Shown piece by piece: positions 20,989 to 63,192 of a stretch of DNA of 64,000 nucleotides (position 1 is its first letter; each line of letters opens with the position of its first letter). Made by a program: the position numbers and the translations under genes. The stretch lies in the NCBI GenBank assembly GCA_030753015.1, contig JASMDC010000021.1:1-64000 (forward strand), written 5' to 3'. The DNA is from Candidatus Undinarchaeales archaeon (GTDB lineage Archaea; SpSt-1190; JASMDC01). The notes beneath the pieces were generated by a model. The model was not told where the DNA came from and did not search any database. It saw only the letters and a program-made list of their open reading frames with translations.

Positions 20989-20996
20989 CCCGAGGC

Positions 20997-21624: not shown

Positions 21625-22671
21625 ATGGACATCATGAACGCATTGCTCTTCCGCGACAAGGGTCGGTTCGACCTGACCGAGACCGATGGACCGGGCGCCA
21701 TCGGCCCCAAGGATGTGCTCATCGAGGTGAAGAGGGCGGGGATCTGCGGTACGGACCTGCACATCTTCCGCGGCACACACCCCGCCAATCCCGACATCAT
21801 CCTCGGGCACGAGTACGCCGGGGTAGTGGCGCAGGCCGGTGATAGCGTCACCCACCTACAAGAGGGCGACGCCGTCGTCATCGATCCCAACGTCACCTGC
21901 GGTACATGCTTCTTCTGCCGCAACGGGATGAGCAACCAGTGCGATGCCCTCGACACGGGCACCACCCTGGGCATATTCCGCCACGGCGGGTTCGCCCGGT
22001 TCAACGTGGCCCCCTCCCACATGGTGTACAAGGCGCCCAAGGACATGGACATGACCGCAGCAGCCCTGGTCGAGCCGCTGTCATGCGTACTGAACGGAGT
22101 AAAGAATGCCGCCATCCAGCCCGAGGACACGGTGGTCGTGCTCGGCGCCGGCCCCATCGGCCTCCTCTTCACTAACGTCCTCTCGCACTTGGCAAGCCTC
22201 CTCATCGTGTCCGAGGTGGACGATCTGCGGGCCGGAAAGGCCCGGCAGTTCACGCCCCACGTGCTCGACCCCAAGGAGACGGACATAGGCAAGGAGGTGC
22301 GGTCGCTCACCGACGGCCGCGGCGCTAACGTGGTGGTGGACGCCACCGGCGTGCTCATGGGCGACGCTCTGGGCCTGGTCGCCAAGGGCGGGAAGGTGGT
22401 GCTCTTCGGCATGAACTCGGCCCACACGGCTGCTATCCGGCCGTACGACATCACCCGTAACGAGATCCAGGTCATCGGCACCTACATCGCCAATCGCACC
22501 GTCGTCCCGGCCATGACCATGCTCCACCAGGGGCGGATCGACGTGGAGCACTACGTGGACACTGTGCTCCCCCTGGACGACATCTACGACGGCTTCCGCC
22601 GGCTGGGTCTCGACCCGGAGACGGGCGAGCGAACACCTATGGACGCCGTCAAGGTGCTCGTGAAGCCGTAG
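21625..22671 (+). CDS. Zinc-dependent medium-chain dehydrogenase, candidate inositol dehydrogenase
   Basis: A 348-aa MDR-superfamily NAD(P)-dependent alcohol/polyol dehydrogenase. GICGTDLHIF and GHEYAGVVAQAGDSV carry the catalytic Zn ligands. CGTCFFCRNGMSNQC is the four-Cys structural Zn lobe. VVLGAGPIGLLF is the Rossmann nucleotide site. It opens the operon with kinase, IolB, IolD and IolE. In Bacillus the first step uses IolG of the GFO/IDH/MocA type, which is absent here, so this enzyme probably oxidises myo-inositol or a downstream keto-acid (inference). Start could be Met1 (21625) or Met4. The stop is 11 nt before the kinase. Confidence 0.85.
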   Translation: MDIMNALLFRDKGRFDLTETDGPGAIGPKDVLIEVKRAGICGTDLHIFRGTHPANPDIILGHEYAGVVAQAGDSVTHLQEGDAVVIDPNVTCGTCFFCRNGMSNQCDALDTGTTLGIFRHGGFARFNVAPSHMVYKAPKDMDMTAAALVEPLSCVLNGVKNAAIQPEDTVVVLGAGPIGLLFTNVLSHLASLLIVSEVDDLRAGKARQFTPHVLDPKETDIGKEVRSLTDGRGANVVVDATGVLMGDALGLVAKGGKVVLFGMNSAHTAAIRPYDITRNEIQVIGTYIANRTVVPAMTMLHQGRIDVEHYVDTVLPLDDIYDGFRRLGLDPETGERTPMDAVKVLVKP

Positions 22672-22682
22672 GGTGCCCTGCG

Positions 22683-23696
22683 ATGGCCGAGGACACGACC
22701 GAAAAAAACCTCGACGTCCTCACCACCGGGATGGTGGTGACGGACGTCATTACCGCGGACCTGCCCCGGTTCGCCGACCCTAGCGAGATGATGTTCGTTC
22801 CCCGCGGGGTGGAGGTTCACGTGGGGGGGCACCCGGCCAACGTGGCCATCGACCTCGCCGCCGTGGGCGTGAACCCGGCCACCATCGGCGTGGTCGCAGC
22901 GGTAGGGGAGGACGTGTTCGGTGATTTCATCGAGGGCACCCTCACGAGGCACGGCATCATTCCCCTCCTACAGCGGAAGCCCGTCGGGACGAGCAAGAAC
23001 ATGATTCTTGTGCTCACCGGCGAGGACAGGCGGTTCCACCTGGACCCAGGGGCCAACATGGAGCTCGAGGCGGACCATGTGATCGATGCCCTGCGGGAGC
23101 ATCACCCCCGTGTGCTCTGCTGTCGGCCCGGCTACTCGGGGATCGACTTGGAGATGGAGCGGGTGGTGCGGGCCGCCCGGGAGGTCGGCACCACCGTCTT
23201 CCTCGACATCTGCAGGCCGTACGCGAAGCCCTGGGACTACATCGCCCCGGCCCTCCCCCATGTGGACATCTTCCACTCCAACGAGGGCGAGGCCATGGGC
23301 GTCACCCGCACCACCACCGTGGATGACGCCCTGGACGCCCTCCTGGACACCGGCATCGGCGCAGTGTTCATCACCGGCGGCGGGAGCGGGGCGAGGGTCA
23401 GGACCAGGCGATGGGATCTGGCCCAGCCGGGGCTCGCGGTGGATGCCATCGACCCCACTGGAGCGGGGGATGCCTTCTGTGCGGGGGTGGTCCGCACGCT
23501 CCTGGACAGGAACGAGCTGGACTGCGACGTACTGGGGCGGGAGGGGCTCGCCCGGCTCCTTGCCTATGCCCAGGCCATGGGCGCCGCCGCGGCGTCGGCA
23601 GTAGGAACGACGACGGGTGTTACTGCCGAGCGTGTACGGTCCCTGGTAGAGGCCCAGGGAGAGCGTCTGGTCACAGAAACCCACTCCCCGGAATAG
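22683..23696 (+). CDS. iolC: PfkB-family sugar kinase, candidate IolC
   Basis: A 337-aa ribokinase-fold kinase. The N-terminal signature is GGHPANVAIDLAAVGVNP and the C-terminal catalytic signature is DPTGAGDAFCAGVVRT with the base Asp. Length is normal. Family members phosphorylate many sugars. The position between a polyol dehydrogenase and IolB/D/E makes 2-deoxy-5-keto-D-gluconate (the IolC substrate) the best guess, but sequence alone does not separate it from 2-keto-3-deoxygluconate kinases. It starts 11 nt after the dehydrogenase stop; a purine-rich leader is not obvious. Confidence 0.82.
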   Translation: MAEDTTEKNLDVLTTGMVVTDVITADLPRFADPSEMMFVPRGVEVHVGGHPANVAIDLAAVGVNPATIGVVAAVGEDVFGDFIEGTLTRHGIIPLLQRKPVGTSKNMILVLTGEDRRFHLDPGANMELEADHVIDALREHHPRVLCCRPGYSGIDLEMERVVRAAREVGTTVFLDICRPYAKPWDYIAPALPHVDIFHSNEGEAMGVTRTTTVDDALDALLDTGIGAVFITGGGSGARVRTRRWDLAQPGLAVDAIDPTGAGDAFCAGVVRTLLDRNELDCDVLGREGLARLLAYAQAMGAAAASAVGTTTGVTAERVRSLVEAQGERLVTETHSPE

Positions 23697-23707
23697 AGGT
23701 GCTGCTC

Positions 23708-24505
23708 ATGGTACGAACCAACGACGTCCACATCCGGGCCCCCGCCGCCCTGGCGGAGGGCGAGAACGAGTATATCGGCCCGGCCGATCCCCACGGGATG
23801 GGGTTCTCGGTCCTCAGACTTACTAGAGCGCTCACCGGGCGCACCGACCACGAGACCTGCCTCGTGCTCCTCTCGGGAAAGGGGAGGGTGCGCGTGGGAG
23901 GCGAGGATCACGACGTTGAGCGCTCCTCCCTGCTGGACGAGGAGCCGTGGACCTTCCTCCTCCCGGCGGGCGAGGATTTCGCCGTCCTCCCGGAACCCGA
24001 AATGGAGCTCGCGGTCATACGAACGGAGAACGAGCGACGCTTTTCGCCGCGGGTGTTCGCACCGGACGCGGTCGACGTGGAGCGACGGGGCGAGGACCTG
24101 GTCGACGGGGCGTGCTTCCGTCTGGTAAAGACCGTGTTCGATCATTCCACCATGGCGGAGAGCAATCTCGTCGTGGGCGAGGTGGTGAACCAGCCGGGAC
24201 GCTGGTCGAGCTATCCTCCGCATCACCACCCCCAACCAGAGCTATACTACTACCGCTTCGTCCCCGGGCAGGGTTACGGCTTCTCCCAGCTCGGTGACAG
24301 GGCGATCAAGGTGTCCGAGGGGAGCCTGGTGTGCATCCCGCCGGACACAGATCACCCGCAGGTGGCCGCACCAGGATACGCCATGTGGTACCTGTGGGTG
24401 GTGCGCCACCTGCCCGACGACCCCTACACGGGATTCACGTTCGATCCACGACATGAATGGACCCTGGACCCCGGAGCGGATGTATGGAGGATAGGAAAGG
24501 GATAG
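23708..24505 (+). CDS. iolB: 5-deoxy-glucuronate isomerase IolB
   Basis: A 265-aa double-cupin protein starting at ATG 23708; the frame is open upstream but overlaps the kinase. The hallmark SSYPPHHHPQPELYYYRF, with the metal-binding His cluster, is characteristic of IolB/KduI-like isomerases, followed by GSLVCIPPDTDHPQ and YLWVVRHL. It converts 5-deoxy-D-glucuronate to 2-deoxy-5-keto-D-gluconate in inositol catabolism. Its neighbours encode the enzymes before and after this step. The stop is 3 nt before iolD, so tight co-translation is likely. Confidence 0.92.
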   Translation: MVRTNDVHIRAPAALAEGENEYIGPADPHGMGFSVLRLTRALTGRTDHETCLVLLSGKGRVRVGGEDHDVERSSLLDEEPWTFLLPAGEDFAVLPEPEMELAVIRTENERRFSPRVFAPDAVDVERRGEDLVDGACFRLVKTVFDHSTMAESNLVVGEVVNQPGRWSSYPPHHHPQPELYYYRFVPGQGYGFSQLGDRAIKVSEGSLVCIPPDTDHPQVAAPGYAMWYLWVVRHLPDDPYTGFTFDPRHEWTLDPGADVWRIGKG

Positions 24506-24508
24506 ATC

Positions 24509-26365
24509 ATGGCTTCAAAGGAACGGAACCGACAGGAGATGACGGCCTCCCAGGCCATCGTCCGCTACCTAATCCACGAGGGTTTGCCGTACGTGTTCGG
24601 CATCTTCGGTCACGGCAACGTGCAGCTGGGCGAGGCCCTGAAGGAGCACGAGGACGAGATCACGTATATCCAGCTGAAGAACGAGCAGAACGGCGTCCAC
24701 ATGGCCATCGGCTATGCCAAGATGACCGGACGGCCGCTCGCCGTGACCACGTCCATCGGGCCCGGGTGCACCAATCTCGTCACCGGCGCTGGGGCGGCGC
24801 GGGTGAACCGCCTGCCTGTGCTTCTGCTTCCCGGTGACGCCTTCGCAGACGCCGCGGGGCCGTTGCTCCAGCAGGTGGAGGGGAACGCGTGCCCGGAGGA
24901 CATGGCCTCGGACACCCTCCGGCCCGTCTCCCGGTACTGGACGCGGATCACCCGGCCAGAGCAGCTCGCACGCCGCCTTCCACAGGCGTTCGACGCCATG
25001 CTGGAGCCCGGTAACGAGGGCCCGGCCACCCTCGCACTGCCCATGGACACCCAGACATTCTCCCACCCCTTCGACGTGGATATGCTCTTCAAACCGCGTG
25101 ACCGGGAGTGGGAGCGCACACGGCCCGACGAGCGGGCCGTAAGGAGGGCGGCGGAGCGTATCTCCAAGGCCACCCGACCCCTCATCATTGCCGGAGGGGG
25201 CGTCATCCGTTCGGAAGCGTGGGAAGAGGTCATTCGGCTCGCCGAGCGCATCTGCGCCCCCGTGGTCTCCACCCAGGCCGGGAACGGTACCATGCTGTGG
25301 GACCACCACATGAACGCCTTCACGGTCGGCCCGGACGGCAGTTCATGCGGCAACCGCCTATGCAAGAAGGCCGACCTGGTCATCGGCATCGGTACGCGGT
25401 ACGGGGACTTCACCACCTGCTCGGACACACTGTTCGGTCCCGACGTGGAGTTCGTCAACCTCAACATCTGCAACTTCGACGTGGGCAAGCAGCGGGCCGT
25501 GAAGCTCCTGGGTGACGCGAGGGAGTCCCTGCGGCTGCTCCTGGAGGAGCTCACCGGGCTCGGCGTGGAGCGGGAGCTTGACGGTAGCCCGTACTACGAG
25601 GAGCTCCAGCGAGAGCGCCGGGAGTGGATGGCCGAGGTGGACCGCGTCACCGGCGAGGATGCCTCGCCCATGACCCAGAACCGCGTCATCGGCGTGCTCA
25701 ACGAGGTCACCGACGACCGGGCGGTGATCGTTTCGGCCGCCGGCAGCCTGCCGGGCCACCTCCTGCGCTTGTGGAAGACCAAGGACCCCACACGGAAGGG
25801 CTACCACTGCGAGTACGCCTTCTCCACCATGGGGTACGAGGTGGCCGGCGGCATGGGTGTGAAGCTCGCCGATCCCTCCCGCGACGTGTACGTCATGGTG
25901 GGGGACGCCTCCTTCCTCATGGCCCCCCAGGAGCTGGTCACCGCCGTCCAGGAGGGTATCGCCGTGACCGTCGTCCTCGTGGACAACCACGGCCCCCAGG
26001 TCATCCGTAACCTCCAGGCCTCCTGCGGCTTCGAGGAGTTCGGGTGCGAGTTCAAGGCCCGCAATGGGAAGGGCCTTGACGGCGGCTACCTCAATCTGGA
26101 CTTCGCCGGGATGGCAGAGTCCATGGGGTGCGTGGGCCTGCGGGCCGCCAACCCCGAAGAGCTCAAGGACGCACTGGCCACAGCAAGGGAGGTCACCGAC
26201 CGACCCACCCTCATCCACGTGCTGGTGGAGCCCGGGCGCAGGTTCCTCGGGTGCTACGACGGCTGGTGGGACGTGCCCCGACCCGTGTTATCGGACCGGG
26301 AGGAGATGCGCCGGCACCGCGCGGAGTACGAGCGGGTGAAGCGCGAGGAGCAGGTGGTGAGGTGA
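24509..26365 (+). CDS. iolD: 3D-(3,5/4)-trihydroxycyclohexane-1,2-dione hydrolase IolD
   Basis: A 618-aa ThDP-dependent enzyme, the length expected for IolD. The N-terminal PYR domain has LKNEQNGVHMAIGYAKMTG with the catalytic Glu and SIGPGCTNLVTGA. The middle domain has RPLIIAGGGVI. The C-terminal PP domain has the ThDP motif GDASFLMAPQELVTAVQEG ending in DN. It cleaves the cyclic dione to 5-deoxy-glucuronate, substrate of the IolB encoded just upstream. The alternative of another acetolactate-synthase-like enzyme is made unlikely by the context. It ends in a GTGA overlap with iolE. Confidence 0.9.
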   Translation: MASKERNRQEMTASQAIVRYLIHEGLPYVFGIFGHGNVQLGEALKEHEDEITYIQLKNEQNGVHMAIGYAKMTGRPLAVTTSIGPGCTNLVTGAGAARVNRLPVLLLPGDAFADAAGPLLQQVEGNACPEDMASDTLRPVSRYWTRITRPEQLARRLPQAFDAMLEPGNEGPATLALPMDTQTFSHPFDVDMLFKPRDREWERTRPDERAVRRAAERISKATRPLIIAGGGVIRSEAWEEVIRLAERICAPVVSTQAGNGTMLWDHHMNAFTVGPDGSSCGNRLCKKADLVIGIGTRYGDFTTCSDTLFGPDVEFVNLNICNFDVGKQRAVKLLGDARESLRLLLEELTGLGVERELDGSPYYEELQRERREWMAEVDRVTGEDASPMTQNRVIGVLNEVTDDRAVIVSAAGSLPGHLLRLWKTKDPTRKGYHCEYAFSTMGYEVAGGMGVKLADPSRDVYVMVGDASFLMAPQELVTAVQEGIAVTVVLVDNHGPQVIRNLQASCGFEEFGCEFKARNGKGLDGGYLNLDFAGMAESMGCVGLRAANPEELKDALATAREVTDRPTLIHVLVEPGRRFLGCYDGWWDVPRPVLSDREEMRRHRAEYERVKREEQVVR

Positions 26366-27264
26366 CGGACCGGATGAGGGTGCGGCTTGGAGTATCACCC
26401 ATCGCCTGGAGCAACGACGACATGCACGACCTCGGGGGCGAAATACCCCTCGAGCGGTGCCTGGGCGAGGCCAGCACGGCCGGGTACGTCGGCGTCGAGC
26501 TGGGGCACAAGTTCCCCCGCGACCCCGCCGTGCTCATGCCGCTCCTGGTCGGCCACGGGCTGGACCTCGTCTCGGGCTGGCACTCCACGTTCTTCACCAG
26601 GGAGAAGGGCCACGATCGTGAGCGTGCGAACTTCAAGAGCCACCTGTCCTTCCTAAAGTCCATGGGGTGTAGCGTCATCATCTGCGCCGAGTGCAACCGG
26701 ACCAGGCACTCTACCATCGACGCCGCTCCACGGGAGAAAGGAGTACCGCTCTTCACCGACGAGGAGTGGGCACGTCTTGCCACCCGGCTCGACGAGGCGG
26801 GACACGTCGCCGCCAATGCCGGGCTGAGGCTCGTGTACCACCACCACATGGGCACGGGCGTGGAGTCTCCGGAGGAGATCCACCGGCTCATGGACACCAC
26901 GGATCCGGACCTGGTGCACCTGCTGGGCGACACGGGCCACATGCTCTATGGCGGAGGTGATCCTGCGACGCTGTTCTCCCGGTACGCCGAGCGCATCGGG
27001 CACGTTCACTTGAAGGACATCCGACGCGACGTGCTGGAGGAGGTCAAGCGGAACCGCCTCTCCTTCCTCGCCTCGGTGCGCATGGGGGTGTTCACCGTCC
27101 CAGGGGACGGGTGCATCGACTACGGGCCGGTCATCGGCTCGCTGGACCGCTCCGGGTATGAGGGCTGGCTGGTGGTAGAGGCCGAGCAGGATCCTGCGAT
27201 CGCCGAGCCCCTGGCATACGCCCGGAAGGCGCGAGGTTTCATCAGGAATAAGGCCGGGATATGA
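26362..27264 (+). CDS. iolE: myo-inosose-2 dehydratase IolE
   Basis: A 300-aa TIM-barrel sugar-phosphate isomerase-like protein starting at GTG 26362, which overlaps the iolD stop (GTGA); ATG 26374 is an alternative. Typical parts are LGVSPIAWSNDDMHDLG at the start, LGHKFPRD, LRLVYHHHMGTGVESPEEI, LLGDTGHMLYGGGD, HVHLKDIRRDV and WLVVEAEQDPAIAEP, which provide the Glu/Asp/His metal ligands. It dehydrates scyllo-inosose to the trihydroxycyclohexanedione used by IolD. Its stop overlaps a 32-codon reading frame in an ATGA arrangement. Confidence 0.9.
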   Translation: MTDRMRVRLGVSPIAWSNDDMHDLGGEIPLERCLGEASTAGYVGVELGHKFPRDPAVLMPLLVGHGLDLVSGWHSTFFTREKGHDRERANFKSHLSFLKSMGCSVIICAECNRTRHSTIDAAPREKGVPLFTDEEWARLATRLDEAGHVAANAGLRLVYHHHMGTGVESPEEIHRLMDTTDPDLVHLLGDTGHMLYGGGDPATLFSRYAERIGHVHLKDIRRDVLEEVKRNRLSFLASVRMGVFTVPGDGCIDYGPVIGSLDRSGYEGWLVVEAEQDPAIAEPLAYARKARGFIRNKAGI

Positions 27265-27359
27265 TGGACGACATGTTCTCCGTCGAGGACGCCGTAGCCT
27301 CAAGAGAGTACCTCGAGCGCTTCCTTCGTCCGGCTAGGGATGGGTCCGGGTCCGTTTGA
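27261..27359 (+). CDS. 32-aa ORF coupled to iolE
   Basis: Small frame beginning ATGATG at 27261 in a 4-base overlap with the iolE stop and ending 2 nt before the transporter ATG. The peptide starts MMDDMFSVEDAVASREYLER. Its fit into the operon without gaps suggests real translation. It could also be the remnant N-terminus of a lost gene such as an aldolase, which this operon lacks. No domain is recognisable in 32 residues. Confidence 0.4.
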   Translation: MMDDMFSVEDAVASREYLERFLRPARDGSGSV

Positions 27360-27361
27360 CC

Positions 27362-28255
27362 ATGGATCGGTTCGTCGTTGCCCTGATCCTGGGCTCCACC
27401 TTCATGCACGCCGGATGGAACCTGCTCGCCCGCCGGCAGCGGTGCGAGACCTCGTTCTTCGAGCGGATGCTCCTCGTGACCGTCCTCGCCGGGCTCGTTC
27501 CGGCGGCGATGAGCGAGGCGGCGATGAGCGAGGCGGCGACCCGGTCTCTTACCCCAATTGCGTGGGCGTGCGTGGTCGGCTCTGGGCTCTGCTGCGGGAT
27601 GTATTACTTCTTCCTTGCCCGGGCGTACGAGTCCGCGGACTTCACCGTGGTCTATCCTGTAGCTCGCTCCCTGCCAGTGGTGCTCGTCGCCCTCGGCGAC
27701 ATGGTGCGGGGGAGGTATCCCAGCCCCGCCGGCTGGTCCGGTATGCTCCTCGTGGTGTCCGGATGCTTCCTCGTCTCGCTCCGCTCGAGCCGGGACGTGA
27801 ACGTTCGGCGCTATCTCGACCGGGCCCACCTGTGGATGCTGTTCACCGCCCTTGGAACGGTGGGCTACACCCTGCTCGACAAGGTAGCCGCTGAGACCAT
27901 GCAACAGGGGCCGACGACAGCCGCCCGGTACGGCTACGTGTTCTTCCTCGTCTCCTACCTGGCCTTCTCGGTGCTCCTGAGGGTGCTTGGACGCGGGGAG
28001 CAGCGCCCGGCGTCCATCGGATGGCGGGACCCGGCCATCGCCGCCGCCCTCAACTTCGGCGCCTACTGGCTCGTGCTCTGGGCATACCAGCTGAGCACGT
28101 TCGCCAGCTACATCGTCGCCCTGCGGCAGTTCAGCATCGTCATCGGCGTCGTGCTGGCCCTCGCCATCTTCAAGGAGAAGGAACCGGGCATCCGTCTCGC
28201 GGGCACCCTGGTGATCACCGTCGGACTCGTGGTCGTCAGTCTCTTTAGCGGGTGA
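27362..28255 (+). CDS. EamA/DMT-family transporter
   Basis: A 297-aa membrane protein with ten predicted TM segments in two homologous halves (EamA repeats). TVVYPVARSLPVVLVALGD is the usual loop motif, and the second half ends with LAIFKEKEPGIRLAGTLVI. The family moves small metabolites, often outward. As the last gene of the inositol operon it may carry an inositol-related compound; the direction is unknown. It starts at ATG 27362. The attachment repeat copy 2 begins 69 nt after its stop. Confidence 0.82.
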   Translation: MDRFVVALILGSTFMHAGWNLLARRQRCETSFFERMLLVTVLAGLVPAAMSEAAMSEAATRSLTPIAWACVVGSGLCCGMYYFFLARAYESADFTVVYPVARSLPVVLVALGDMVRGRYPSPAGWSGMLLVVSGCFLVSLRSSRDVNVRRYLDRAHLWMLFTALGTVGYTLLDKVAAETMQQGPTTAARYGYVFFLVSYLAFSVLLRVLGRGEQRPASIGWRDPAIAAALNFGAYWLVLWAYQLSTFASYIVALRQFSIVIGVVLALAIFKEKEPGIRLAGTLVITVGLVVVSLFSG

Positions 28256-28324
28256 TCGACGGCCCAGGACGGCCACCGCGATCCGACAGCGCGGCTTTCA
28301 CTAGAGGGCTCTATTGGGATTGGC

Positions 28325-28441
28325 TTCCGAAAAGCTCAAGTAGAGCATAGGCTACGAGGTAACCAGACAAGGGTGTCGACTGGGATAGGATGAGCCTGCC
28401 GATTTGTAAGCAAGATCGTGCGCGGATCCCGTCCCCCGCAC
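28325..28441 (+). repeat. Island attachment arm plus tRNA-Leu 3' core, copy 2
   Basis: Ungapped 117-bp counterpart of 20003-20119. It starts with the same TTCCGAAAAGCTCAAGTAGA and ends CGGATCCCGTCCCCCGCAC, one mismatch from the tRNA-Leu core. The arm shows about 80-85 % identity by eye, with its hairpin partly kept. It closes island B. Confidence 0.75.
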
Positions 28442-49252: not shown

Positions 49253-49330
49253 TTCTACACACCTTCCCCCACGGGAAAGCTCCCCTGCCTAGAACGCCGT
49301 GAGGGCCGGTGGCAGGCAGCGGGGAAACGT

Positions 49331-49480
49331 TCGTGGACTACCCCTCTACGACTAGAGGAGCTTCCCGATTCGACGCTGTCTCCAGCTCCACGGGCGCATC
49401 GGGTGGTCCCCACCCTGAGCGGTTAAGGATGTTCAAGGCAGCGTTCAGGTCACGGTCAATTGCAAGGCCACAGTTCCAGC
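49331..49480 (-). ncRNA. Putative omega-RNA 3' end of the TnpB element
   Basis: On the minus strand the last codons of tnpB form the stem CTCCTCTA-GTCG-TAGAGGGG (49341-49360), followed by GTAGTCCACG. GAAGC-stem-GGGGTAGT is the common terminal hairpin of archaeal IS1341/IS605 elements where the guide RNA scaffold ends and the element right end lies. The 5' limit is a guess; the guide would start near 49333 on the minus strand. Confidence 0.45.
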
Positions 49481-53711: not shown

Positions 53712-54728
53712 TTAGAGCGACCGAGCCCGGTCGGTGACGTGGACGCAGTCCTCCCATCGGACGCCCCAGTCATCCAGGTAGACGCCCGGCTCGACGGTGA
53801 ACACCATCCCCCGTTCCACGGTGTCCTTCGATTTCGAGCTCACCGTTGGCATTTCATGCACTGCGATGCCCACGCCGTGGCCCAGGCTGTGAGTGAAGCG
53901 TTCGGCGAGCTCGCCCAGAGCCTCGCGGGCCGCCGCGTCGACGTCCACCAGGGGAACCCCTGGCCTGATCGCGCGCAGGGCGGCCTGCTGCGCCTCCTTG
54001 ACGCGGGCAAGCACGACCTCCTGCTCCTCGGTCCGTGGGATGGTACGGGTCATGTCCCCGCAGTAGCCGGCATACCGCGCCCCGCAGTCCACAAGAACGA
54101 TCCCATCGAGAGGGGCCGTGGTCGTGCTGGCGTGGGGAAGTCGGCTGTTGCGTCCCGCGGCCACGATCGACGGGAATGCCACATCGCAGCCCTCGCGGAG
54201 AAATGCGCCCTCCACCTCGGCCCGCAGCTCGCCCTCGGTGGCAGCGTCCCCCAGGCCCTCCTTCATCAGGCGGTCGAGCACTCCCCGGGTCACCTCGCAG
54301 GCGCGGCGGAGGCGGGCCACCTCGTCGTCGGTCTTGCACGAGCGCAGGCCTTCCAGCACGACCGTGGCATCGGTCCAGCGCACTGAGCGCAGGCGGCGGC
54401 GGAGGGTCCGGGCGGTATGATGCGTGGTGAGCTTGTGGGGGAACGCGATCCTCGGATGGGGCTGACCGGGGATAAGTGCCCTTGCGGCCTTGTAGAGCTT
54501 GGTATCGAAGTCCTCGTACCGCAACACCTCAACCCCTTCACGGGCATCCTCCTCGGCACGCGTGCGCTCGAACTCCGGGACCACCACAGCGATTCGCTCG
54601 GGAGTGACCACCGCCAGCGCCGACTCCTGGCGCAGGCAGCCGGTGAGATAGAACACTGTGTCCTGATCGACGGCGAGGAGCGCGTCCAGGTGCTTCTTCT
54701 GGATGGCGTCGGCGAGGCGCGGGTCCAC
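53712..54728 (-). CDS. M24-family metallopeptidase, Xaa-Pro aminopeptidase-like
   Basis: A 338-aa protein starting at GTG 54728 (MDPRLADAIQKKHLDALL). Creatinase-like N-domain to about 120, then the pita-bread catalytic domain. Metal ligands: Asp in VDCGARYAGYCGDMTRTIP (two Asp), His in HSLGHGVGIAVHEMP, Glu in VEPGVYLDDWGVRWEDCVHV (two Glu). It removes N-terminal residues next to proline. The stop lies about 40 nt from the coiled-coil start. The promoter and first 18 codons are duplicated 6,015 bp away in front of the gene at 60743. Confidence 0.9.
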   Translation of the reverse strand: MDPRLADAIQKKHLDALLAVDQDTVFYLTGCLRQESALAVVTPERIAVVVPEFERTRAEEDAREGVEVLRYEDFDTKLYKAARALIPGQPHPRIAFPHKLTTHHTARTLRRRLRSVRWTDATVVLEGLRSCKTDDEVARLRRACEVTRGVLDRLMKEGLGDAATEGELRAEVEGAFLREGCDVAFPSIVAAGRNSRLPHASTTTAPLDGIVLVDCGARYAGYCGDMTRTIPRTEEQEVVLARVKEAQQAALRAIRPGVPLVDVDAAAREALGELAERFTHSLGHGVGIAVHEMPTVSSKSKDTVERGMVFTVEPGVYLDDWGVRWEDCVHVTDRARSL

Positions 54729-54775
54729 GGGGGAGAAAGGGGACGCTCAAGGTTTAAGGGCTTTTACTATGCCCA
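54718..54775 (-). repeat. 58-bp direct repeat, left copy, with M24 promoter and exoD ghost
   Basis: Identical to 60733-60790 except one base (AAGG here, AATG there). On the minus strand it holds the last codons of an exoD-like reading frame (stop 54767-54769), the TATA CCCTTAAACC and GTG GAC of the M24 gene. Beyond the 58 bp, similarity continues weakly on both sides: the first 18 residues of the two proteins share 11 identities, and upstream both copies encode GPAPWA-stop. Confidence 0.85.
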
Positions 54776-54863
54776 CGGCGCCGGCCCTCGGGCCTGCCAC
54801 GTAAACCTTAAATAGCGATAGAAGGGTGCGTGTTCCCACGGAACGGAAGATCCGTGATGGACC

Positions 54864-55598
54864 ATGCCCCTGCTCTACGATCTCGACCAGATGCGCCGGC
54901 ACTATCGCGAGCTGCTCGACCAGAAGCCCGCAGACTACTTCGAGCGCCTCGATCCGTTCCTCCTGGACAAGCGCCCCCTTGTCGTGGATGTCATGGAGAG
55001 GGCTTTCGAGCGGCTCTTCCCCGAGCCGGTCCGCGACCTGCTGGACGTGGGATGCGGGACATGCTTCTACTTCCCGCTGCTCTCGCGCCACGCCGAGCGA
55101 CTCGTGGGCATCGATCCCTGCATCCCGATGCTCGACCTGGCCCGCGAACTGATCGCGGAGAAAGGGCTTTCCAACTGCGATGTGAGGGAGAGCTCCGCTC
55201 TGGATCTACCCTTCGACGACGAGAGCTTTGACATGGTCCACTCCTGGGACTTCCTGCACCACGTGCCGAACCCCCGGCGGGCTGCCTCCGAGATCGCCCG
55301 CGTGCTAAGGCCGGGCGGCCGCTACCTCGCGGTGGAGCCGAACCTCATGAATCCGGCCATGGTGTACTACCACGCGACCCGTCGCTCGGAGTGGGGTCTC
55401 TTCAGCAAGAACCAGTTCTCGAACGTCCGCATCTTCCGGCGGCACTTCGACGTGTCGGTCCACTTCGACAACGCGATCATCAGCCACGTGAACGAGCGCA
55501 CCAAGGGACTGTTGCGCGCCATCGACGCCTTCACGTCGGTATGGCCCACGCGTTATCTCTCCTTCCGCTACGTGATGGAATGCACGAAGAAGGGCTAG
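54864..55598 (+). CDS. SAM-dependent class I methyltransferase
   Basis: A 244-aa enzyme. Motif I LLDVGCGTCFYFPLL with acidic motif II GIDPCIPMLDLARE, then DLPFDDESFDMVHSWDFLHHV and RVLRPGGRYLAVEPN; the layout of a UbiE/Methyltransf_11 enzyme. Substrate unknown; as first gene of a cassette with radical SAM, UGM-like and GT-C-like genes it may methylate a sugar or lipid carrier. TATA CCTTAAATAGCG at 54806-54816; ATG 54864 or 54856. Its arginine codons are mostly CGC/CGG, like the host rather than the next two genes. Confidence 0.85.
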   Translation: MPLLYDLDQMRRHYRELLDQKPADYFERLDPFLLDKRPLVVDVMERAFERLFPEPVRDLLDVGCGTCFYFPLLSRHAERLVGIDPCIPMLDLARELIAEKGLSNCDVRESSALDLPFDDESFDMVHSWDFLHHVPNPRRAASEIARVLRPGGRYLAVEPNLMNPAMVYYHATRRSEWGLFSKNQFSNVRIFRRHFDVSVHFDNAIISHVNERTKGLLRAIDAFTSVWPTRYLSFRYVMECTKKG

Positions 55599-55678
55599 GT
55601 GTGGTGAGCTGAGGCAGGCCTGCACCGTCCACTTGGACCCTTGGTTTAAAAGATTGGGCCGATTATAAGAGCGGGAAG

Positions 55679-57133
55679 ATGCGGTTCTTGTTCGTGTTCA
55701 GGAGCGTCGAGTGGATAGGCGTTGAATACATCTCGGCATCATTGAAGAGGGCCGGGCACGAGACGGACATGGCATTCGAGGCGGACCTTGGAGGGACCTT
55801 CTATTTCGGCTCACGGAGCAGGACGCACGGATCCATCATCGAGAAGGTCAGGGAGTTCGGACCGGACATGGTCCTGTTCTCGTCCACCACACAACTCTTC
55901 CCGTGGGTAAAGGAGGTCTCACGGGATATCAAGGAACACTTTGATATCCCCATCCTGGTGGGAGGTATCCATGCCACAATCCAACCAGAGGAGGTCCTCT
56001 CCGACGACCATATCGACATGGTCTGTGTCGGGGAGGGAGAAGAGGCGATCGTGGAGCTCGCCGACAGGATGCAGGAAGAACAGGACTACAGCGATACAAG
56101 GAACATCTGGCTCAAGTCCGAGAACGGATTGATCAAGAACCCGGTACGGCCCCTGATAAGGGACCTCGACGAACTGCCGTTCCCGGACAAGGACCTCTTC
56201 TATAAATACGGTTGCTTCAGGAAGAGGGCCTACGTCATGGCCACCAGGGGGTGCCCCTACAATTGCCCCTATTGCTTCAACCATCAGCTGAAGAGGATCT
56301 ACAAGGACACGCGCTCACTCTACGTCAGGAGGAGGAGCGTGGGCTCCGTCATCGAGGAGCTGAATGGATACCGGAAAAGATATGGGATCAACAGCGTCCA
56401 TTTCTATGACGACACCTTCACGCTCGACGAGGGATGGGTCATGGAGTTCGCCGAAAGGTACGGGAAGGAGATCGGGCTGCCGTTCTATTGCCTCGTCAGG
56501 CCGGACCATGTCAACGAGAGGATGATCGAGGCCCTCAGGAAGGCGGGTTGCGTGAGCATGGGGATGGGTATCGAGAGCGGTAACGACCATGTCAGGAACC
56601 AGGTCCTGAAAAGGAACATGTCGAACGAGCAGATACTCGAGGCTGCGAGGATCATCAAGGCGCAGGGCATCAAGCTCGTAACGTTCAACATGTTCGGGTT
56701 CCCGGGAGAGGACACCGACCAGATGCTCGACACCATGAGGATCAACCTGGACCTGAGGCCCGATTCCCTGTTCACGTTCATCTTCTATCCGTTCCCGGGG
56801 ACCGATGCATTGAGGATGGCGGTGGAACAGGGCTGCATAGACGACAAGAGCATGGAGATGATAATGAACGGGGAAGGCGGTTTCCAACGCGAATCCGTAC
56901 TGGACCATCCATACAAGGGAATCGCGTACAACATGAAGGTCATACTGCCGCTACTGAACAAGATGCCCAGGTCCACTCACGACTACTTCCTCAAGAAGTG
57001 GGTCTTCAGGGAGCACTCGGGTTCCCTGCTATCGATCATCAGTCTGGTCTCTCTACCCTTCTATTCTTCCTGGGAGTCCTGGGAGAGGGCGAGGGAGCAG
57101 ATCTCCATGTTCAAGGTCCGGTTCACTTCGTGA
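55679..57133 (+). CDS. B12-binding-type radical SAM protein of the glycan cassette
   Basis: A 484-aa protein with a cobalamin-binding-like N-domain (residues 1-140; VGGIHATIQPEEVL) and a radical SAM core with ATRGCPYNCPYCFNHQ (CxxxCxxC). FGIESGNDHVRN-like sequence appears as MGMGIESGNDHVRNQVLKRN, then FGFPGEDTDQML. It could methylate, cyclise or rearrange a sugar or polyprenyl intermediate. Arginines are frequently AGG, unlike most of the window, which suggests transfer. TATA GTTTAAAAG at about 55644 and start ATG 55679. Confidence 0.87.
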   Translation: MRFLFVFRSVEWIGVEYISASLKRAGHETDMAFEADLGGTFYFGSRSRTHGSIIEKVREFGPDMVLFSSTTQLFPWVKEVSRDIKEHFDIPILVGGIHATIQPEEVLSDDHIDMVCVGEGEEAIVELADRMQEEQDYSDTRNIWLKSENGLIKNPVRPLIRDLDELPFPDKDLFYKYGCFRKRAYVMATRGCPYNCPYCFNHQLKRIYKDTRSLYVRRRSVGSVIEELNGYRKRYGINSVHFYDDTFTLDEGWVMEFAERYGKEIGLPFYCLVRPDHVNERMIEALRKAGCVSMGMGIESGNDHVRNQVLKRNMSNEQILEAARIIKAQGIKLVTFNMFGFPGEDTDQMLDTMRINLDLRPDSLFTFIFYPFPGTDALRMAVEQGCIDDKSMEMIMNGEGGFQRESVLDHPYKGIAYNMKVILPLLNKMPRSTHDYFLKKWVFREHSGSLLSIISLVSLPFYSSWESWERAREQISMFKVRFTS

Positions 57134-57224
57134 AGCGGTCCGTGCGAAACCCCGGAGCACAAGGCCATTACTCTGCGTCGCCCATTCAAAAAGGATATTA
57201 AGCATTGTCTTGATTTCCTGAGGT

Positions 57225-58661
57225 GTGAACCAGTCCGAGGTTCTCATTCTGGGTGCAGGCCCCGCCGGAATGGCCGCCGCGTTCGAACTGTCCAAGGCAC
57301 AAAGGACCAGCACGGTCATCGAAAGGAACGAGTGCGTGGGGGGATTGGCGAGGACCATTCAGCACGGCGATTTCCGGACGGATATCGGACCCCACCGGTT
57401 CATCAGCCAGGACCGGAAGCTGTACGAGCTGATCGAAGGCCTGCTCGGTCGAAGATGGGCGAAGGTCGACCGCATAACGCATTTCATCATCGGGGGAAGG
57501 TTCTTTCGGTATCCCATAGACGTCAGGAACGCCCTCGTCAACGTGGGACCGTTCAAGGCGATCCGGTTCCTCCTTGATTACCTCTACGAGGGGATCAAGC
57601 CATTGTTCGTGGAACGGGAGTGCCGTTCCTTCGAGGACTACGCGGTCTCCAATTTCGGGAGGGGCCTGGCAGAACTGAACATCCTCAACTACACAGAGAA
57701 GACGTGGGGGCTGCCATGTTCCGAGATATCCCCTGACTGGGCAAGACAGCGGATCAAGGGCCTTTCCATACCATCGATAGTGAAGAAAGCGATAATGGGA
57801 TCGGGCAGCGGACCAAAGACCCTGGTAGATCAGTTCCACTATCCCGACACCGGAACGGGAGCGATCTATGAAGCGATGAAGGAACGGGTTCTGGGCGAAG
57901 GGCATTGCGAGATCCTCACAAACGCTCACCCTATCGAGATCTCGTACGACGGCCATGGGCTTGTTGGGATCGCCGTCGATGTCAACGGCACTATCAAGCG
58001 TTTTCGCCCCGACCACGTGATATCCTCGATCCCCCTCCCGGAACTGATAGGGCTGCTCGAACCTGAACCGCCGGCCAATGTCGTGGAGGCCGCCGGGAAA
58101 CTGAGGTTCCGCTCCCATGTATCCCTCTTCATCACGCTGGATAAATCATCCGTGTTCCCGGACCAGTGGATCTACTTCCCCGACAAGAACATCCCCTTCG
58201 GCAGGATCATGGAGCCAAGGAACTTCAGTGGAAAGATGGCCCCGCCGAACAAGACCTCCTTGCTCATCGAGTTCTTCTGTTGGGAGGACGACGAGATCTG
58301 GAACGCAGACAGCGAAAGGCTGTTGGAGCTTAGCGCCAAGTGGCTGGAGGAGCTGACATCCATCCGGATGGACGAGGTCATCGACAGCTTCGTCCACAAG
58401 GAGCGCCATGCCTACCCGGTCTACGACCTGGGGTACAGGAAGCACCTGGATACGGTCAATGAGTATCTCGGGAGGTTCAAGAACCTGCAATCCATCGGCA
58501 GGGGGGGCTGTTTCAGGTACAATAACCAGGACCACGCACTGGCAATGGGAGCTTTGGCTGCGAGGAGCATAATCGAGGGAAGGCGGTTCAATATCGAGGA
58601 CGTCGGAACGGAGGACGAATACCTCGAAGCGGATCCCGTACCCGGCCGTACGGACCCATGA
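57225..58661 (+). CDS. FAD-dependent amine-oxidase/UGM-like flavoprotein
   Basis: A 478-aa flavoprotein beginning VLILGAGPAGMAAAFELSKA, the dinucleotide-binding fold, then GGLARTIQHGDFRTDIGPHRF, as seen in UDP-galactopyranose mutase and protoporphyrinogen oxidase-like enzymes. The C-terminal YNNQDHALAMGALAARSIIEG is the FAD-binding closing motif. Position in a surface-glycan cassette favours a UGM-like sugar-nucleotide mutase. TATA GATATTAAG at 57194-57202 and GTG start at 57225, leaderless. Ends 16 nt before the convergent GT-C-like gene. Confidence 0.8.
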   Translation: MNQSEVLILGAGPAGMAAAFELSKAQRTSTVIERNECVGGLARTIQHGDFRTDIGPHRFISQDRKLYELIEGLLGRRWAKVDRITHFIIGGRFFRYPIDVRNALVNVGPFKAIRFLLDYLYEGIKPLFVERECRSFEDYAVSNFGRGLAELNILNYTEKTWGLPCSEISPDWARQRIKGLSIPSIVKKAIMGSGSGPKTLVDQFHYPDTGTGAIYEAMKERVLGEGHCEILTNAHPIEISYDGHGLVGIAVDVNGTIKRFRPDHVISSIPLPELIGLLEPEPPANVVEAAGKLRFRSHVSLFITLDKSSVFPDQWIYFPDKNIPFGRIMEPRNFSGKMAPPNKTSLLIEFFCWEDDEIWNADSERLLELSAKWLEELTSIRMDEVIDSFVHKERHAYPVYDLGYRKHLDTVNEYLGRFKNLQSIGRGGCFRYNNQDHALAMGALAARSIIEGRRFNIEDVGTEDEYLEADPVPGRTDP

Positions 58662-58676
58662 ACGGCTCTGTCAGCT

Positions 58677-60743
58677 CTACTCCAGAGTATCTGTGGACCG
58701 AGGGACGCCCCCCCTGTACGATCTGGAGAGGTACAGGATGACCAAGCCCAAGCCGCACAAGGAGGCCAACCCCGGGATGATTTCCGTACCAGACTGCCGG
58801 AACGCGAACTCGACGACCGTGTGTTCCTGCCCTTCCAAGGGAACCGTCATGAAGTGGTCCCGTGGCGTGATCTGGGCCAATTTCCCGTTCACGTACGCCT
58901 CCCAATTGGGGAAGGAGGTGATCTTCAAGAGCAAGGCTCCCCGGGCCACGTCATCCAGTTCGATCCGAACGTGCTCCGGACCGAGCTCAACGGAGGTGAC
59001 GGTGCCTGGGGCCTCGACGATGCCCGTGGCATCCTTCATCTCGAAGATAGCGATCCTCGGGCTCCTGTAGACCTGGGCGAACCTGTCCGAGCGGTAGAAG
59101 TTGTCGGTGGAATCGGGCATCCAGGTAAGAACGTGGGTCACGCCGAACCTCTGGTATTCGGAGTAGAGTGCATCGAGATCCTTGCTCCCGAGGTCCGTGA
59201 TGAGGTCCAACGTCTCCAGGGACACGGGCGACAGCTCGTGGTTGAGCCCCGAGACCTCCTGGCGAGGGATGAGCGGGACGGTGCTGTGCAGGTAGTGCGG
59301 CGAGCCGAGGCTCCACCTCATGTCCCAGTGGAACTCCGCTGCGATCCTATCTTCGGGCCTGATGTTATCCTCGATCCATTCCAGGGCAGGTCCCAGCTCC
59401 CCGGTGGAATCGCTGTAGTCGCCGTCCGATCTCACGTACTCCTCGCTATCGACCAGCACCTTGGGGGCCGCGAACAGGAGGAAGAGGATGACGAGAAGGA
59501 CGGATGTCGCGGCCTTCGTCCCCTTGCGTGATGGGATGCCACATAGCCCACCTGCGAAGAGGCAGCACACTATCCCCAGGTACGTTGGGGCCCTCACGTA
59601 CTGATGCTGGATGGCGTTCCTGAACGGCATGTATATCATCGCCCCCGGGGCGCCGAGCGAGAGGTAGAGAAGTAGGAAGAAGAGTGCCAGGAGGACAACG
59701 TTCCTGCGAGCCCGGATCGAGAGCAGGATCCCGGATAGCGCAAGTGCTCCCAGGAGGGGGCTCCCCACGCCCGCAGGTTCCCCAATATCGGAGTTCGGGC
59801 TGAAGAAGGTCCGTGTCAATGTGGTCACGGTGGTCGGCAGGTCCACTACAGGGCTGACCCCCCATTCGGGTGCATGGTCCCTGCTGATCGACATGTAACC
59901 GTAATTGGAGTACATGGGGATCGTCCAGAACAACGTCAACACGCCAGAGGTCAACAATGCCAGGAGAAGATATCCTCCACGTTCCCCGTCCCTCGTCAAC
60001 AGGGCCTCGAGGCCCAAGATGAGAACAACGAACATCACCAGGAAGTATGCCGATAGGAGATGAGTCAGCACGATCGCGCCCAGGCAGGTCCCGGCGAGGA
60101 CCGCGTTCCTCGTTCCCGGGTCCCTGCGGAGACGGATGAACGAGGCGAGCACGAGCGGGAACAGGCTCACGCCGAGCGAGCTCGGATACAGGCCCATCCA
60201 GAAATTACCCACCAGTCCTCCGGAATAGGGTGAGCCGATGGTCAGGGATAACAACGCCGAGACGAGAGCGCTCTCCCTTGAAAGGTCCAGCGTTCTCGCC
60301 AGTATGAACACTCCGATGGGTAAGAAGACATGACCCATGGCCACACTGATCTGGTATGCCGAGAGAAGGGAGAGCATTCCGAAAGATACTCGGTGGATGA
60401 GCACGGGCAGCAGGAAGGCCAATGGCGGATAGAAATAGAACATCGGGAAGCCGCAGTACCAGTAGGGGTACCACCCGCTGAGCCTCAAGCGCGGGAGCAG
60501 GTAGGAGTCGAGGAACGAGATACGGTTGAACTGGGGGGGGTGGTCGATCCCCACGGGCATCCCGGAGAAGATGTTCCGGATCGTATAGAGGTTGAACAGC
60601 ACGATCAGGCCGAGTAATGCGTATCCAGGGTGGCCTCTCAGCATGTCATAAGCACGTTCGAGATACCCGCGGTCCCGAGGCGTTCTCATGTTCACAGCGT
60701 CCAGGGACTTCTCCGGGATTGCTATGGCGGGTCGCGGGTCCAC
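58677..60743 (-). CDS. Polytopic GT-C/PTPS-related membrane protein with captured N-terminus
   Basis: A 688-aa membrane protein with about 12 TM helices, then a soluble tail (residues 500-640, beta-rich). The start region (GMPVGIDHPPQFNRISFLD, WYPYWYCGFPMFYFYPPL) has the acidic first loop of the 6-pyruvoyl-tetrahydropterin-synthase-related/GT-C membrane group. It begins GTG at 60743, but residues 1-18 match the M24 peptidase N-terminus in 11 of 18 positions, and the natural start may be Met19 (MRTPRDRGYLERAYDML, 60689). I infer a glycan-assembly membrane enzyme. Confidence 0.72.
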   Translation of the reverse strand: MDPRPAIAIPEKSLDAVNMRTPRDRGYLERAYDMLRGHPGYALLGLIVLFNLYTIRNIFSGMPVGIDHPPQFNRISFLDSYLLPRLRLSGWYPYWYCGFPMFYFYPPLAFLLPVLIHRVSFGMLSLLSAYQISVAMGHVFLPIGVFILARTLDLSRESALVSALLSLTIGSPYSGGLVGNFWMGLYPSSLGVSLFPLVLASFIRLRRDPGTRNAVLAGTCLGAIVLTHLLSAYFLVMFVVLILGLEALLTRDGERGGYLLLALLTSGVLTLFWTIPMYSNYGYMSISRDHAPEWGVSPVVDLPTTVTTLTRTFFSPNSDIGEPAGVGSPLLGALALSGILLSIRARRNVVLLALFFLLLYLSLGAPGAMIYMPFRNAIQHQYVRAPTYLGIVCCLFAGGLCGIPSRKGTKAATSVLLVILFLLFAAPKVLVDSEEYVRSDGDYSDSTGELGPALEWIEDNIRPEDRIAAEFHWDMRWSLGSPHYLHSTVPLIPRQEVSGLNHELSPVSLETLDLITDLGSKDLDALYSEYQRFGVTHVLTWMPDSTDNFYRSDRFAQVYRSPRIAIFEMKDATGIVEAPGTVTSVELGPEHVRIELDDVARGALLLKITSFPNWEAYVNGKLAQITPRDHFMTVPLEGQEHTVVEFAFRQSGTEIIPGLASLCGLGLVILYLSRSYRGGVPRSTDTLE

Positions 60744-60790
60744 GGGGGAGAAAGGGGACGCTCAATGTTTAAGGGCTTTTACTATGCCCA
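60733..60790 (-). repeat. 58-bp direct repeat, right copy, with promoter and start of 60743
   Basis: Right copy of 54718-54775 (one mismatch; offset 6,015 bp). It contains the exoD 3' end (stop 60782-60784), TATA CCCTTAAACA and GTG start of the GT-C-like gene. Confidence 0.85.
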
Positions 60791-61453
60791 GGGGGCCGGA
60801 CCGAGGCCCAGTATGTAGCGTACGAACCCCACAAGAGAATGGCCTACCTTGAGCCCGGCGTAGTAGGTGAAGTAGAGCACCGAGACGGAGATGGTGCCCG
60901 CTATCAGCGATAAGCAGAACCCCAGCGCCATCACCAGGCCGTCGGCGTAGAGCAGCCCGAGCCCCATGACGAATACCGAGAAGGCCGGGGCGGTGTTGGT
61001 GAGCGGGACGGGGATGAGCATGCTCGTGCCCATGAGCATGATGAACAGTGAGAAGAACGACCGGAAAAGGCGGTTGGTCGTGAGGACGGAGAAGCGGGGG
61101 CGGGTGAACCTTTCTGTGAAGCGGAGCACGCCGATCCCCTTCTCCAGGAAGGAGGTGACGAACGAGTGCGGGATGCTCTTCTTGCGCAGGAAGGCCGGCA
61201 GCCATGGCACGTGGCGCCCGCTGATTAGCTGGAAGCCCAGAAGGATTATCACGAGGCCGAAGGGGATGGAGTAGCCTGCGGCGGGGATGGGCAGACCCGA
61301 GGGCAGCGCCACCAGCATGAGGATGAACCCGAACCCCCTATCCTCGATGCGCTCTAGGAGCGCCGACACCGGGATGTCCTTATCACCGAAGGAATTGAGC
61401 AGCTCCCGGACGTCCTCGGACAGGGGCCTGTGCGCGACGTTGATGTCGGTCAT
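60782..61453 (-). CDS. exoD: ExoD-family membrane protein
   Basis: A 223-aa protein with four or five TM segments. ERIEDRGFGFILMLVALPSGLPIP then LVIILLGFQLISGRHVPWLP is the ExoD (exopolysaccharide synthesis) signature. In rhizobia this family affects exopolysaccharide production; here the role is likely envelope-related. TATA TTTTTTTAAACC at 61481-61495; this AT-rich stretch may also serve tRNA-Asn on the other strand. The 3' end is duplicated as a ghost at 54767-54790, evidence that it once preceded the M24 gene directly. Confidence 0.82.
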   Translation of the reverse strand: MTDINVAHRPLSEDVRELLNSFGDKDIPVSALLERIEDRGFGFILMLVALPSGLPIPAAGYSIPFGLVIILLGFQLISGRHVPWLPAFLRKKSIPHSFVTSFLEKGIGVLRFTERFTRPRFSVLTTNRLFRSFFSLFIMLMGTSMLIPVPLTNTAPAFSVFVMGLGLLYADGLVMALGFCLSLIAGTISVSVLYFTYYAGLKVGHSLVGFVRYILGLGPAPWA

Positions 61454-61752: not shown

Positions 61753-62784
61753 CTAATCGACGCACTGGCCGGGGTAACCGATCCCGATCTGGTCGCAGCT
61801 CTTGCCGCCCGTGCAATCGCTGTCGCTCAGGCAGCAGTCGAGGGCCGTCGCGCAATCGGACCAAGTCGCGCAGCACTCCACTCCACCACCACCGCCGATG
61901 ACGAGGTACCCCGCAGGGCACGTACCACCGGTCGGGATACCGTACTGGTTCGTGATGGGGTGAGAGCCGATGCTCGCGCCGATGGAGGGACTGCACATAC
62001 CGCCGCCGCTCATGCCGCAGAGGCCGAGGATCGTGTTGCAGTACGTGCTGCCACCACAGTTCGCATCAGAGTTGCACGAATCGCCGAAGCCGCCCACGAG
62101 GACGCATCGGCCAGGGTAACCGATCCCGATCTGGTCGCAGCTCTTGCCGCCCGTGCAATCGCCGTCGCTCAGGCAGCAGTCGAGGGCCGTCGCGCAATCG
62201 GACCATGTCGCGCAGCACTCCACTCCGCCACCGCCGCCGATAACGAGGTAGCCAGCAGGGCACGTACCGCCCGTGGGGATCCCGTACTGGTTCGTGATGG
62301 GGTGGGAGCCGATGCTCGCGCCGATGGAGGGACTGCACATGCCACCACCGCTCATGCCGCAGAGGCCGAGGACCGTGTTGCAGTACGTGCCCGTGCCACA
62401 GTCAGTGTTAGATGTGCATGCGTCGCCGAAGCCGCCCACGAGGACGCACCGGCCGGGGTAACCGATCCCGATCTGGTCGCAGCTCTTGCCGCCCGTGCAG
62501 TCGCTGTCGCTCAGGCAGCAGTCAAGGGCAGTGGTGCAGTTGGACCATGTCGCGCAGCACTCCACTCCGCCACCGCCGCCGATGACGAGGTAGCCAGCAG
62601 GGCACGTGCCACCGGTCGGAACCCCGTACTGGTTCGTGATGGGGTGGGAGCCGATGCTCGCGCCGATGGAGGGATTGCACATGCCGCCGCCGCTCATGCC
62701 GCAGAGGCCGAGGATCGTGTTGCAGTACGTGCCCGCGCCACAGTTAGCATCGGACGTGCATGCGTCGCCGAAGCTGCCGGTGCT
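61753..62784 (-). repeat. Three tandem 342-bp repeats inside the Cys-rich gene
   Basis: The start of the block GGGTAACCGATCCCGATCTG recurs at spacings of exactly 342 bp (61773, 62115, 62457), and most of each unit matches. Units in coding order run about 62784-62443, 62442-62101 and 62100-61759. Confidence 0.85.
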
Positions 62785-63192
62785 GACGGGCGTCGCCGTC
62801 ACCACGCACACGTTGTCCACCAGGGTGGTACCCTCACCGCACGTGACGGGTGGAGGGCACACAGGACAAGGCTCGGGAGGCGCGCAGGTGGGGCAAGGCA
62901 CCGGCTCGGGACAGGTAGGACACCTCTTCTCGGGGCATTCCGGAGGGGGACATTCGGGGCACTCCTCCTTCCTCTGGAGACCTATGGCGCGCGCCGTCTC
63001 AGGCTTCATCATCCTCCGGAAGGTCTTCGGTCGGGCGTCGGGATTGAACCGCTTCCATCGCTTCGCCTTGCCCCTCTTTCGAGCCCTTGCGTCGGCGGCG
63101 GCCGCTGCGTCCGCGAACAGGACGCAGGCTATGACCAGCAGCACGATCGAGCGGAGAACAAGCTTCCTGGAAAGGACGTTCTTGGATGACAT
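61753..63192 (-). CDS. Secreted protein with three 114-aa Cys-rich tandem repeats
   Basis: A 479-aa protein starting ATG 63192. Signal peptide (LVLRSIVLLVIACVLFADAAAAA). A basic region, then a CPECPPPECPEKRCPTC-type Cys-Pro stretch (about 76-118). Three near-identical 114-residue repeats (342 bp each) follow: FGDACTSDANCGAGTYCNT, CGMSGGGMC, IGASIGSHPITNQYG and YLVIGGGGGVECCATW. Each repeat holds about 16 Cys, a knot-like disulfide domain. Sequence identity among repeats is so high that recent duplication or gene conversion is likely. TATA-like GTTATATATC at about 63268-63277 upstream. Confidence 0.85.
   Translation of the reverse strand: MSSKNVLSRKLVLRSIVLLVIACVLFADAAAAADARARKRGKAKRWKRFNPDARPKTFRRMMKPETARAIGLQRKEECPECPPPECPEKRCPTCPEPVPCPTCAPPEPCPVCPPPVTCGEGTTLVDNVCVVTATPVSTGSFGDACTSDANCGAGTYCNTILGLCGMSGGGMCNPSIGASIGSHPITNQYGVPTGGTCPAGYLVIGGGGGVECCATWSNCTTALDCCLSDSDCTGGKSCDQIGIGYPGRCVLVGGFGDACTSNTDCGTGTYCNTVLGLCGMSGGGMCSPSIGASIGSHPITNQYGIPTGGTCPAGYLVIGGGGGVECCATWSDCATALDCCLSDGDCTGGKSCDQIGIGYPGRCVLVGGFGDSCNSDANCGGSTYCNTILGLCGMSGGGMCSPSIGASIGSHPITNQYGIPTGGTCPAGYLVIGGGGGVECCATWSDCATALDCCLSDSDCTGGKSCDQIGIGYPGQCVD

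Follow-up and report, generated by a model that had tools for sequence, protein, structure and literature searches.

In a Candidatus Undinarchaeales archaeon, two copies of the junction between exoD and an M24 metallopeptidase gene frame a cassette of four main genes, of which at least three are probably foreign, and exoD and the peptidase gene, now 6 kb apart, were once direct neighbors. The window analyzed here is a stretch of 64,000 nt at the start of contig JASMDC010000021.1 (assembly GCA_030753015.1). With moderate confidence, we interpret the arrangement as foreign DNA that was inserted at the exoD/M24 junction and duplicated it, after which the promoters in both copies were kept by use. 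Most foreign genes in microbial genomes show no visible mechanism of entry, and the scars of entry are still readable here.

Anatomy of the repeated junction

A 58-nt core occurs at 54718-54775 and again at 60733-60790 with a single mismatch (57/58), at a spacing of exactly 6,015 nt, as the initial annotation had reported with identical coordinates. This core is the inner part of a direct repeat of 113 nt (54682-54794 and 60697-60809, unstranded) that is 85% identical and is recovered by BLAST over 106 nt at 86.8% (E = 5e-30). The edges of the repeat are sharp, since beyond them only 7 of the next 36 nt and 10 of the previous 42 nt match, and identity is uneven along its length: 57/58 in the core, 26/35 on the M24 side, and 14/20 on the exoD side.

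The host assembly is a draft of 3.85 Mb in 117 contigs with an estimated contamination of 5%, and its gene set (ABCE1/RLI and leaderless TATA promoters) and nearest kin point to an archaeon. When the repeat was searched by BLAST against this genome, only the same two sites were found, with a third-best match of 24 nt (E = 0.011); the search for the 58-bp sequence elsewhere in the genome, proposed in the initial annotation, thus yielded no third copy in 3.85 Mb. We therefore rejected both a dispersed repeat, given just two copies, and a chance match, given the E-value between them. Because the copies differ outside the core and each lies beside its own neighbor, the arrangement also differs from what a simple collapse or mis-join would leave where a repeat is identical.

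Each copy contains the last ~9 codons of exoD, a spacer, and the first ~17 codons of the M24 gene. In minus-strand orientation, the right copy comprises the genuine exoD tail (GPAPWA followed by a stop), the spacer, a GTG, and ~17 codons resembling the M24 start. This relic head reads MDPR-A-AI--K-LDA against MDPRLADAIQKKHLDAL in M24 and is in frame as the start of the open reading frame (ORF) of a GT-C-like protein. The left copy, on the same strand, holds a relic exoD tail, the identical spacer, and the real M24 start; its GPAPWA-stop lies in the exoD frame, which confirms the earlier observation that the stop and last codons of exoD persist there. Since the exoD tail and the M24 head are present in each copy, the former adjacency of the two genes, also claimed earlier, is shown twice and independently. 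The peptidase gene (53712-54728, minus strand; Xaa-Pro peptidase type, PF00557, E = 5e-59, and PF01321) was the original downstream neighbor of exoD, and exoD (60782-61453, minus strand; PF06055, E = 2e-51) the original upstream neighbor. Among the 297 genomes searched, exoD was present in 2; the nearest genomes compared share only the class with the host, and a scan of named genomes recovered only distant M24 proteins.

Genes of the cassette and their codon usage

The first gene of the cassette encodes a class I SAM methyltransferase (54864-55598, plus strand; PF08241, E = 1e-26) and has a TATA-like CTTAAATA just upstream. It is followed on the same strand by a gene for a B12-binding radical SAM protein (55679-57133), whose B12-binding and radical SAM domains both score above cut-off (PF02310 and PF04055) and whose CPYNCPYC motif conforms to CxxxCxxC, and by a gene for a UDP-galactopyranose mutase (UGM)-like FAD protein (57225-58661). 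The fourth gene (58677-60743, minus strand) encodes a polytopic membrane protein of the PTPS_related/DUF6541 type, the first ~17 codons of which are derived from M24. This protein is a member of a GT-C-related family by Pfam, exceeding the gathering scores of PF10131 (40.0 bits over 26.4) and PF20176 (41.8 over 29), and is predicted to act as a glycosyltransferase; it had no PDB match by sequence.

The flavoprotein resembles UDP-galactopyranose mutases in belonging to an FAD-binding family and in having these enzymes as its best PDB matches (E = 3e-23). However, it falls far below the cut-off of the UGM equivalog TIGR00031 (34.8 versus 303.75 bits) and instead passes that of NF005548 (426 versus 389 bits), which places it in the unnamed PRK07208.1-4 group. 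Its best relatives (57% and 50%) come from different groups within the same domain and have nucleotide-sugar epimerase-like genes as neighbors, and one of them also has a glycosyltransferase gene. The radical SAM and flavoprotein genes are adjacent in G010, G052, G072, and G092, four genomes from a single family, which indicates a conserved pair rather than one assembled by chance. B12-radical SAM proteins, UGM-like flavoproteins, GT-C proteins, and methyltransferases are families that fit the synthesis or decoration of envelope glycans or glycolipids, and the gene content suggests such a role for the cassette. Pfam identified no integrase, recombinase, or transposase among the four main genes. 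A virus-borne origin was considered and rejected, as both the exact core pattern and relatives of the flavoprotein were absent from viral contigs.

Codon usage sets most of the cassette apart from the host. We calculated the share of AGG among arginine codons for 1,275 genes with at least 10 arginines, called with our own procedure in 2.07 Mb of the host genome (54%), and obtained a mean of 0.144 (standard deviation = 0.106). The radical SAM gene, at 0.76, ranks first among all 1,275 genes; the flavoprotein gene (0.44) ranks 22nd and the GT-C gene (0.39) 42nd, which places these two in about the top 2-3%. The AGG richness that the initial annotation attributed to the radical SAM and flavoprotein genes is thereby supported, whereas a foreign composition of the whole cassette is not, because the methyltransferase gene (0.12) is ordinary and host-like. 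At least the radical SAM, flavoprotein, and GT-C genes are thus probably foreign, and because of the host-like codon usage of the methyltransferase gene, the cassette may be composite.

A predicted promoter in both junction copies

A TATA peak at -28 to -30 of the start codon is characteristic of leaderless promoters in archaea. In the upstream regions of 1,538 called host genes, the hexamers TTTAAA, TTTATA, and CTTAAA are most frequent at -28 to -30, and the genome-wide mode of CTTAAA, -30, is exactly its position before both M24 and GT-C. In the left core (minus strand), which carries the relic exoD stop, CTTAAA at 54753-54758 precedes the M24 GTG start at 54726-54728; in the right core (minus strand), CTTAAA at 60768-60773 precedes the GTG at 60741-60743 that now opens the GT-C ORF. 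Both copies therefore have the leaderless arrangement, a TATA element ~26-30 nt before a start codon at +1, and the core is predicted to be an archaeal leaderless promoter upstream of both genes. A scan of the junction for a sigma-70 promoter and a terminator found neither. While the GT-C ORF starts at the duplicated GTG, a second ATG (60689-60687) lies 7 bp into the non-repeated DNA, and the inserted DNA at this end leaves hardly any space for its own promoter.

The conserved core covers -47 to +11, so that the part which has stayed identical consists of the promoter and the start codon. It contains 1 mismatch in 58 positions, compared with 15 in 55 in the flanks (Fisher's exact test, p = 7e-5), and at the flank rate the probability of at most one mismatch in 58 positions is 2e-7. 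We favor promoter use as the cause of this conservation, because an unused relic promoter at a parallel locus, described below, has lost its TATA box. Gene conversion has possibly also acted in the core. The 24-nt spacer from TATA to start is perfect in both copies, and selection alone need not keep it so. The diverged flanks (73% identical) argue against a recent event; the recent insertion assumed in the initial annotation is therefore not borne out, and only the promoter core looks young.

Similar arrangements elsewhere in the genome

We surveyed 2.07 Mb (54% of the genome), again with our own gene calls, for isolated direct repeats 0.7-15 kb apart and found 16 direct and 3 inverted pairs. 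Besides the window, seven cases consist of an insert between direct repeats, and six of these repeat the 3' end of a gene. The short C53, C41, C24 (48870), and C40 pairs were excluded from the main count.

The clearest parallel is located on contig C29 at 127858-128040 and 130357-130541 (L161 7858-8040 and 10357-10541), where a 185-bp repeat of 83% identity encloses radical SAM/SPASM and GT2 genes; the insert has a GC content of 0.48, and the AGG share of the GT2 gene is 0.67. This repeat contains the tail and stop of a GT2 gene, a spacer, and the beginning of the following gene (ATG and ~20 codons). No gene lies at the start of its relic promoter, which has 8 mismatches in 58 positions, five of them in the TATA stretch (ATAAAAACA), and has lost the TATA box.

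In five further cases, an intact gene 3' end lies on one side of the insert and a relic of the same end beyond it. On contig C95 (L121 4486-6141), an AGG-rich pyruvate kinase gene follows directly behind MutL, and a diverged copy of the MutL end is found on its far side. On contig C22 (L221 17281-17319 and L222 5483-5519), 37 bp of the ABCE1 3' end recur with 97% identity 8.2 kb apart, enclosing a transposase-like gene and an ORF of 2,366 aa. The remaining repeats derive from the 3' ends of a DUF2249/hemerythrin gene flanking an Mrp ATPase gene, a PEPCK-like gene flanking an IS21-like element, and an AsnC-type regulator gene flanking an ABC transporter set. Four of these five pairs are short (37-60 bp), and each of the four is weaker evidence when taken alone. 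The seventh case is an intergenic pair near tRNA-Thr (C29:157903 and 164504). The repeats at L046 were set aside as a small family of related repeats by appearance, unrelated to the junction pattern.

The anatomy of the repeats was the basis for choosing the pairs; codon usage played no part. The eight inserts, including the window cassette, have a mean AGG share of 0.34, compared with 0.145 (standard deviation = 0.03) for random placement; none of 2,000 random placements reached the value of the inserts, and the result was again 0 of 2,000 without the window cassette. All 16 pairs, unselected, gave p = 8e-7 for AGG. In control loci from other species, raw direct repeats numbered 22 per Mb, compared with 6.7 in the host, and several of the six control repeats checked proved to be pairs of paralogue type, each copy lying within a gene. 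The frequency of raw repeats is thus not unusual, and the evidence rests on the gene-end anatomy and on the codon usage between the copies.

This mode of insertion has apparently operated repeatedly in the genome. We tentatively suggest, as a possibility short of an even chance, that this archaeon repeatedly took in foreign genes through a process in which 40-300 bp of target are duplicated, usually the 3' end of a gene and sometimes a whole junction with promoter and start codon, with no element-borne integrase and with both old and new genes expressed. The scars suggest a repeatable insertion beside core genes, such as those for MutL and ABCE1, and others like exoD that leaves all of these genes unbroken; in one case the newcomer gene appears to have received a promoter already in place. 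Long repeats of a junction on either side of genes with odd composition would be a simple signature to seek in other genomes.

How the cassette may have entered

According to the insertion model that we favor, a repair or recombination event would have introduced the block and left a ~113-bp copy of the junction on each side, giving a D-X-D layout. In the left copy, M24 would have kept a complete leaderless promoter; the GT-C gene, with its own ATG 7 bp inside the insert, would have adopted its promoter and start codon from the right copy. With both promoters in use, the 58-bp core would have been held near-identical by selection, possibly aided by gene conversion, as the unused flanks drifted to about 73%. 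The mismatches between gene ends and their relics number 31, 37, and 53 at the first, second, and third codon positions (53 of 121 at the third), which would fit duplication followed by drift and possibly also donor-derived copies; the counts appear nearer to those expected if one copy decayed after duplication than if both had long remained functional. A partial precedent is provided by merodiploids formed by transformation in Streptococcus pneumoniae, in which foreign donor DNA is likewise accompanied by a duplicated chromosomal segment (PMC3784515). Those duplications span 3.3 to 936 kb and are unstable, whereas the duplicated piece here is ~0.1-0.3 kb and old.

We favor insertion with junction duplication because no recombinase was recognized among the four main genes, the site is new each time, the repeats exceed the reported att length, and the inserts look foreign. 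The alternative of a decayed integrative element we regard as unlikely, but as the most serious competitor. The repeats would then be attL and attR and the 58-bp core the recombination site, the integrase having been lost or supplied in trans, and the diverged flanks would represent the form of the host junction that the element itself carried; a cross of attB with attP does give an identical core with diverged arms. Archaeal elements do enter the 3' ends of protein genes and intergenic sites: of 68 thaumarchaeal elements, 14 lie in the former and 15 in the latter (PMC6563490). As in these iMGEs, direct repeats of a host gene 3' end frame foreign DNA here and leave the host gene intact. However, the four main genes of the cassette include no integrase or other recombinase, each case lies at a different site with no shared sequence where related elements would reuse an att sequence, and the repeat at exoD reaches the promoter and start of the next gene. 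Repeats of 106-300 bp, the window's own measuring 113 nt, are also longer than reported archaeal att sites (29-69 bp in crenarchaea and a median of 17 bp in thaumarchaea; PMC6563490), and the core matches a promoter and not a symmetric site. We continue to give att-type integration some weight because of the 3'-end bias, seen in 6 of the 7 other cases, and because of a tRNA-Leu island tract in the window, where the 19-nt 3' end of the tRNA recurs twice behind a shared 98-nt arm. The same bias is nevertheless expected from selection, since a duplication that covers the end of a gene leaves the gene intact.

Tandem duplication of a larger exoD-M24 segment, in which all but two junctions were lost or replaced and the cassette arrived later or was built there, we consider improbable. 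The excess of direct over inverted pairs (16 versus 3) and a duplicated and deleted glycan segment on contig C84 speak for such a history, but it requires two deletions to have ended no more than 9 and 17 codons from one junction, with ends close to the junction again on C29, and it leaves the foreign codon usage between the copies unexplained. More improbable still is a single crossover (pop-in) with a circle that bore the cassette together with a related copy of the junction, excised for example from another strain through recombination between repeats there. The C29 copies, roughly evenly 83% identical, and the stop-free relic frames in the tails of the C24, AsnC-type, and MutL cases would suit it; against it, the mismatches lack the third-position concentration expected for two long-functional copies (53/121), and the DUF2249 relic holds stops and a frameshift. 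The initial annotation had proposed that the block entered with duplication of the junction, which agrees with our reading, but target duplication by a DDE-type transposon, despite likewise leaving host sequence on both sides of an insert, is unlikely, as 113 bp is ~10 times too long for a duplication of a few to ~15 bp and no transposase is found among the four main genes.

Other repeats in the window and genome

An Rfam scan of the window identified two tRNAs only. In the tRNA-Leu island tract (17290-28441), the 3'-terminal 19 nt of tRNA-Leu (17290-17375) are found again at 20101-20119 and 28423-28441, and each such end with its arm forms a unit of 117 nt that is 83% identical; no integrase was noticed. 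The second segment of this tract carries what appears from the translations to be an inositol-catabolism-like set (IolB/C/D/E-like proteins, a dehydrogenase, and a transporter). An inverted 93-bp match (76%) links 7727-7819 with 49327-49418, the second site being the 3' end of a TnpB gene. On contig C84 (L123 2879-7479), a glycan locus includes a relic of the tails of a nucleotide-sugar dehydrogenase gene and a nucleotidyltransferase gene (96% over 192 bp). Finally, a Cys-rich protein composed of 342-nt tandem repeats that are about 90% identical is encoded at 61753-63192 and adjoins tRNA-Asn.
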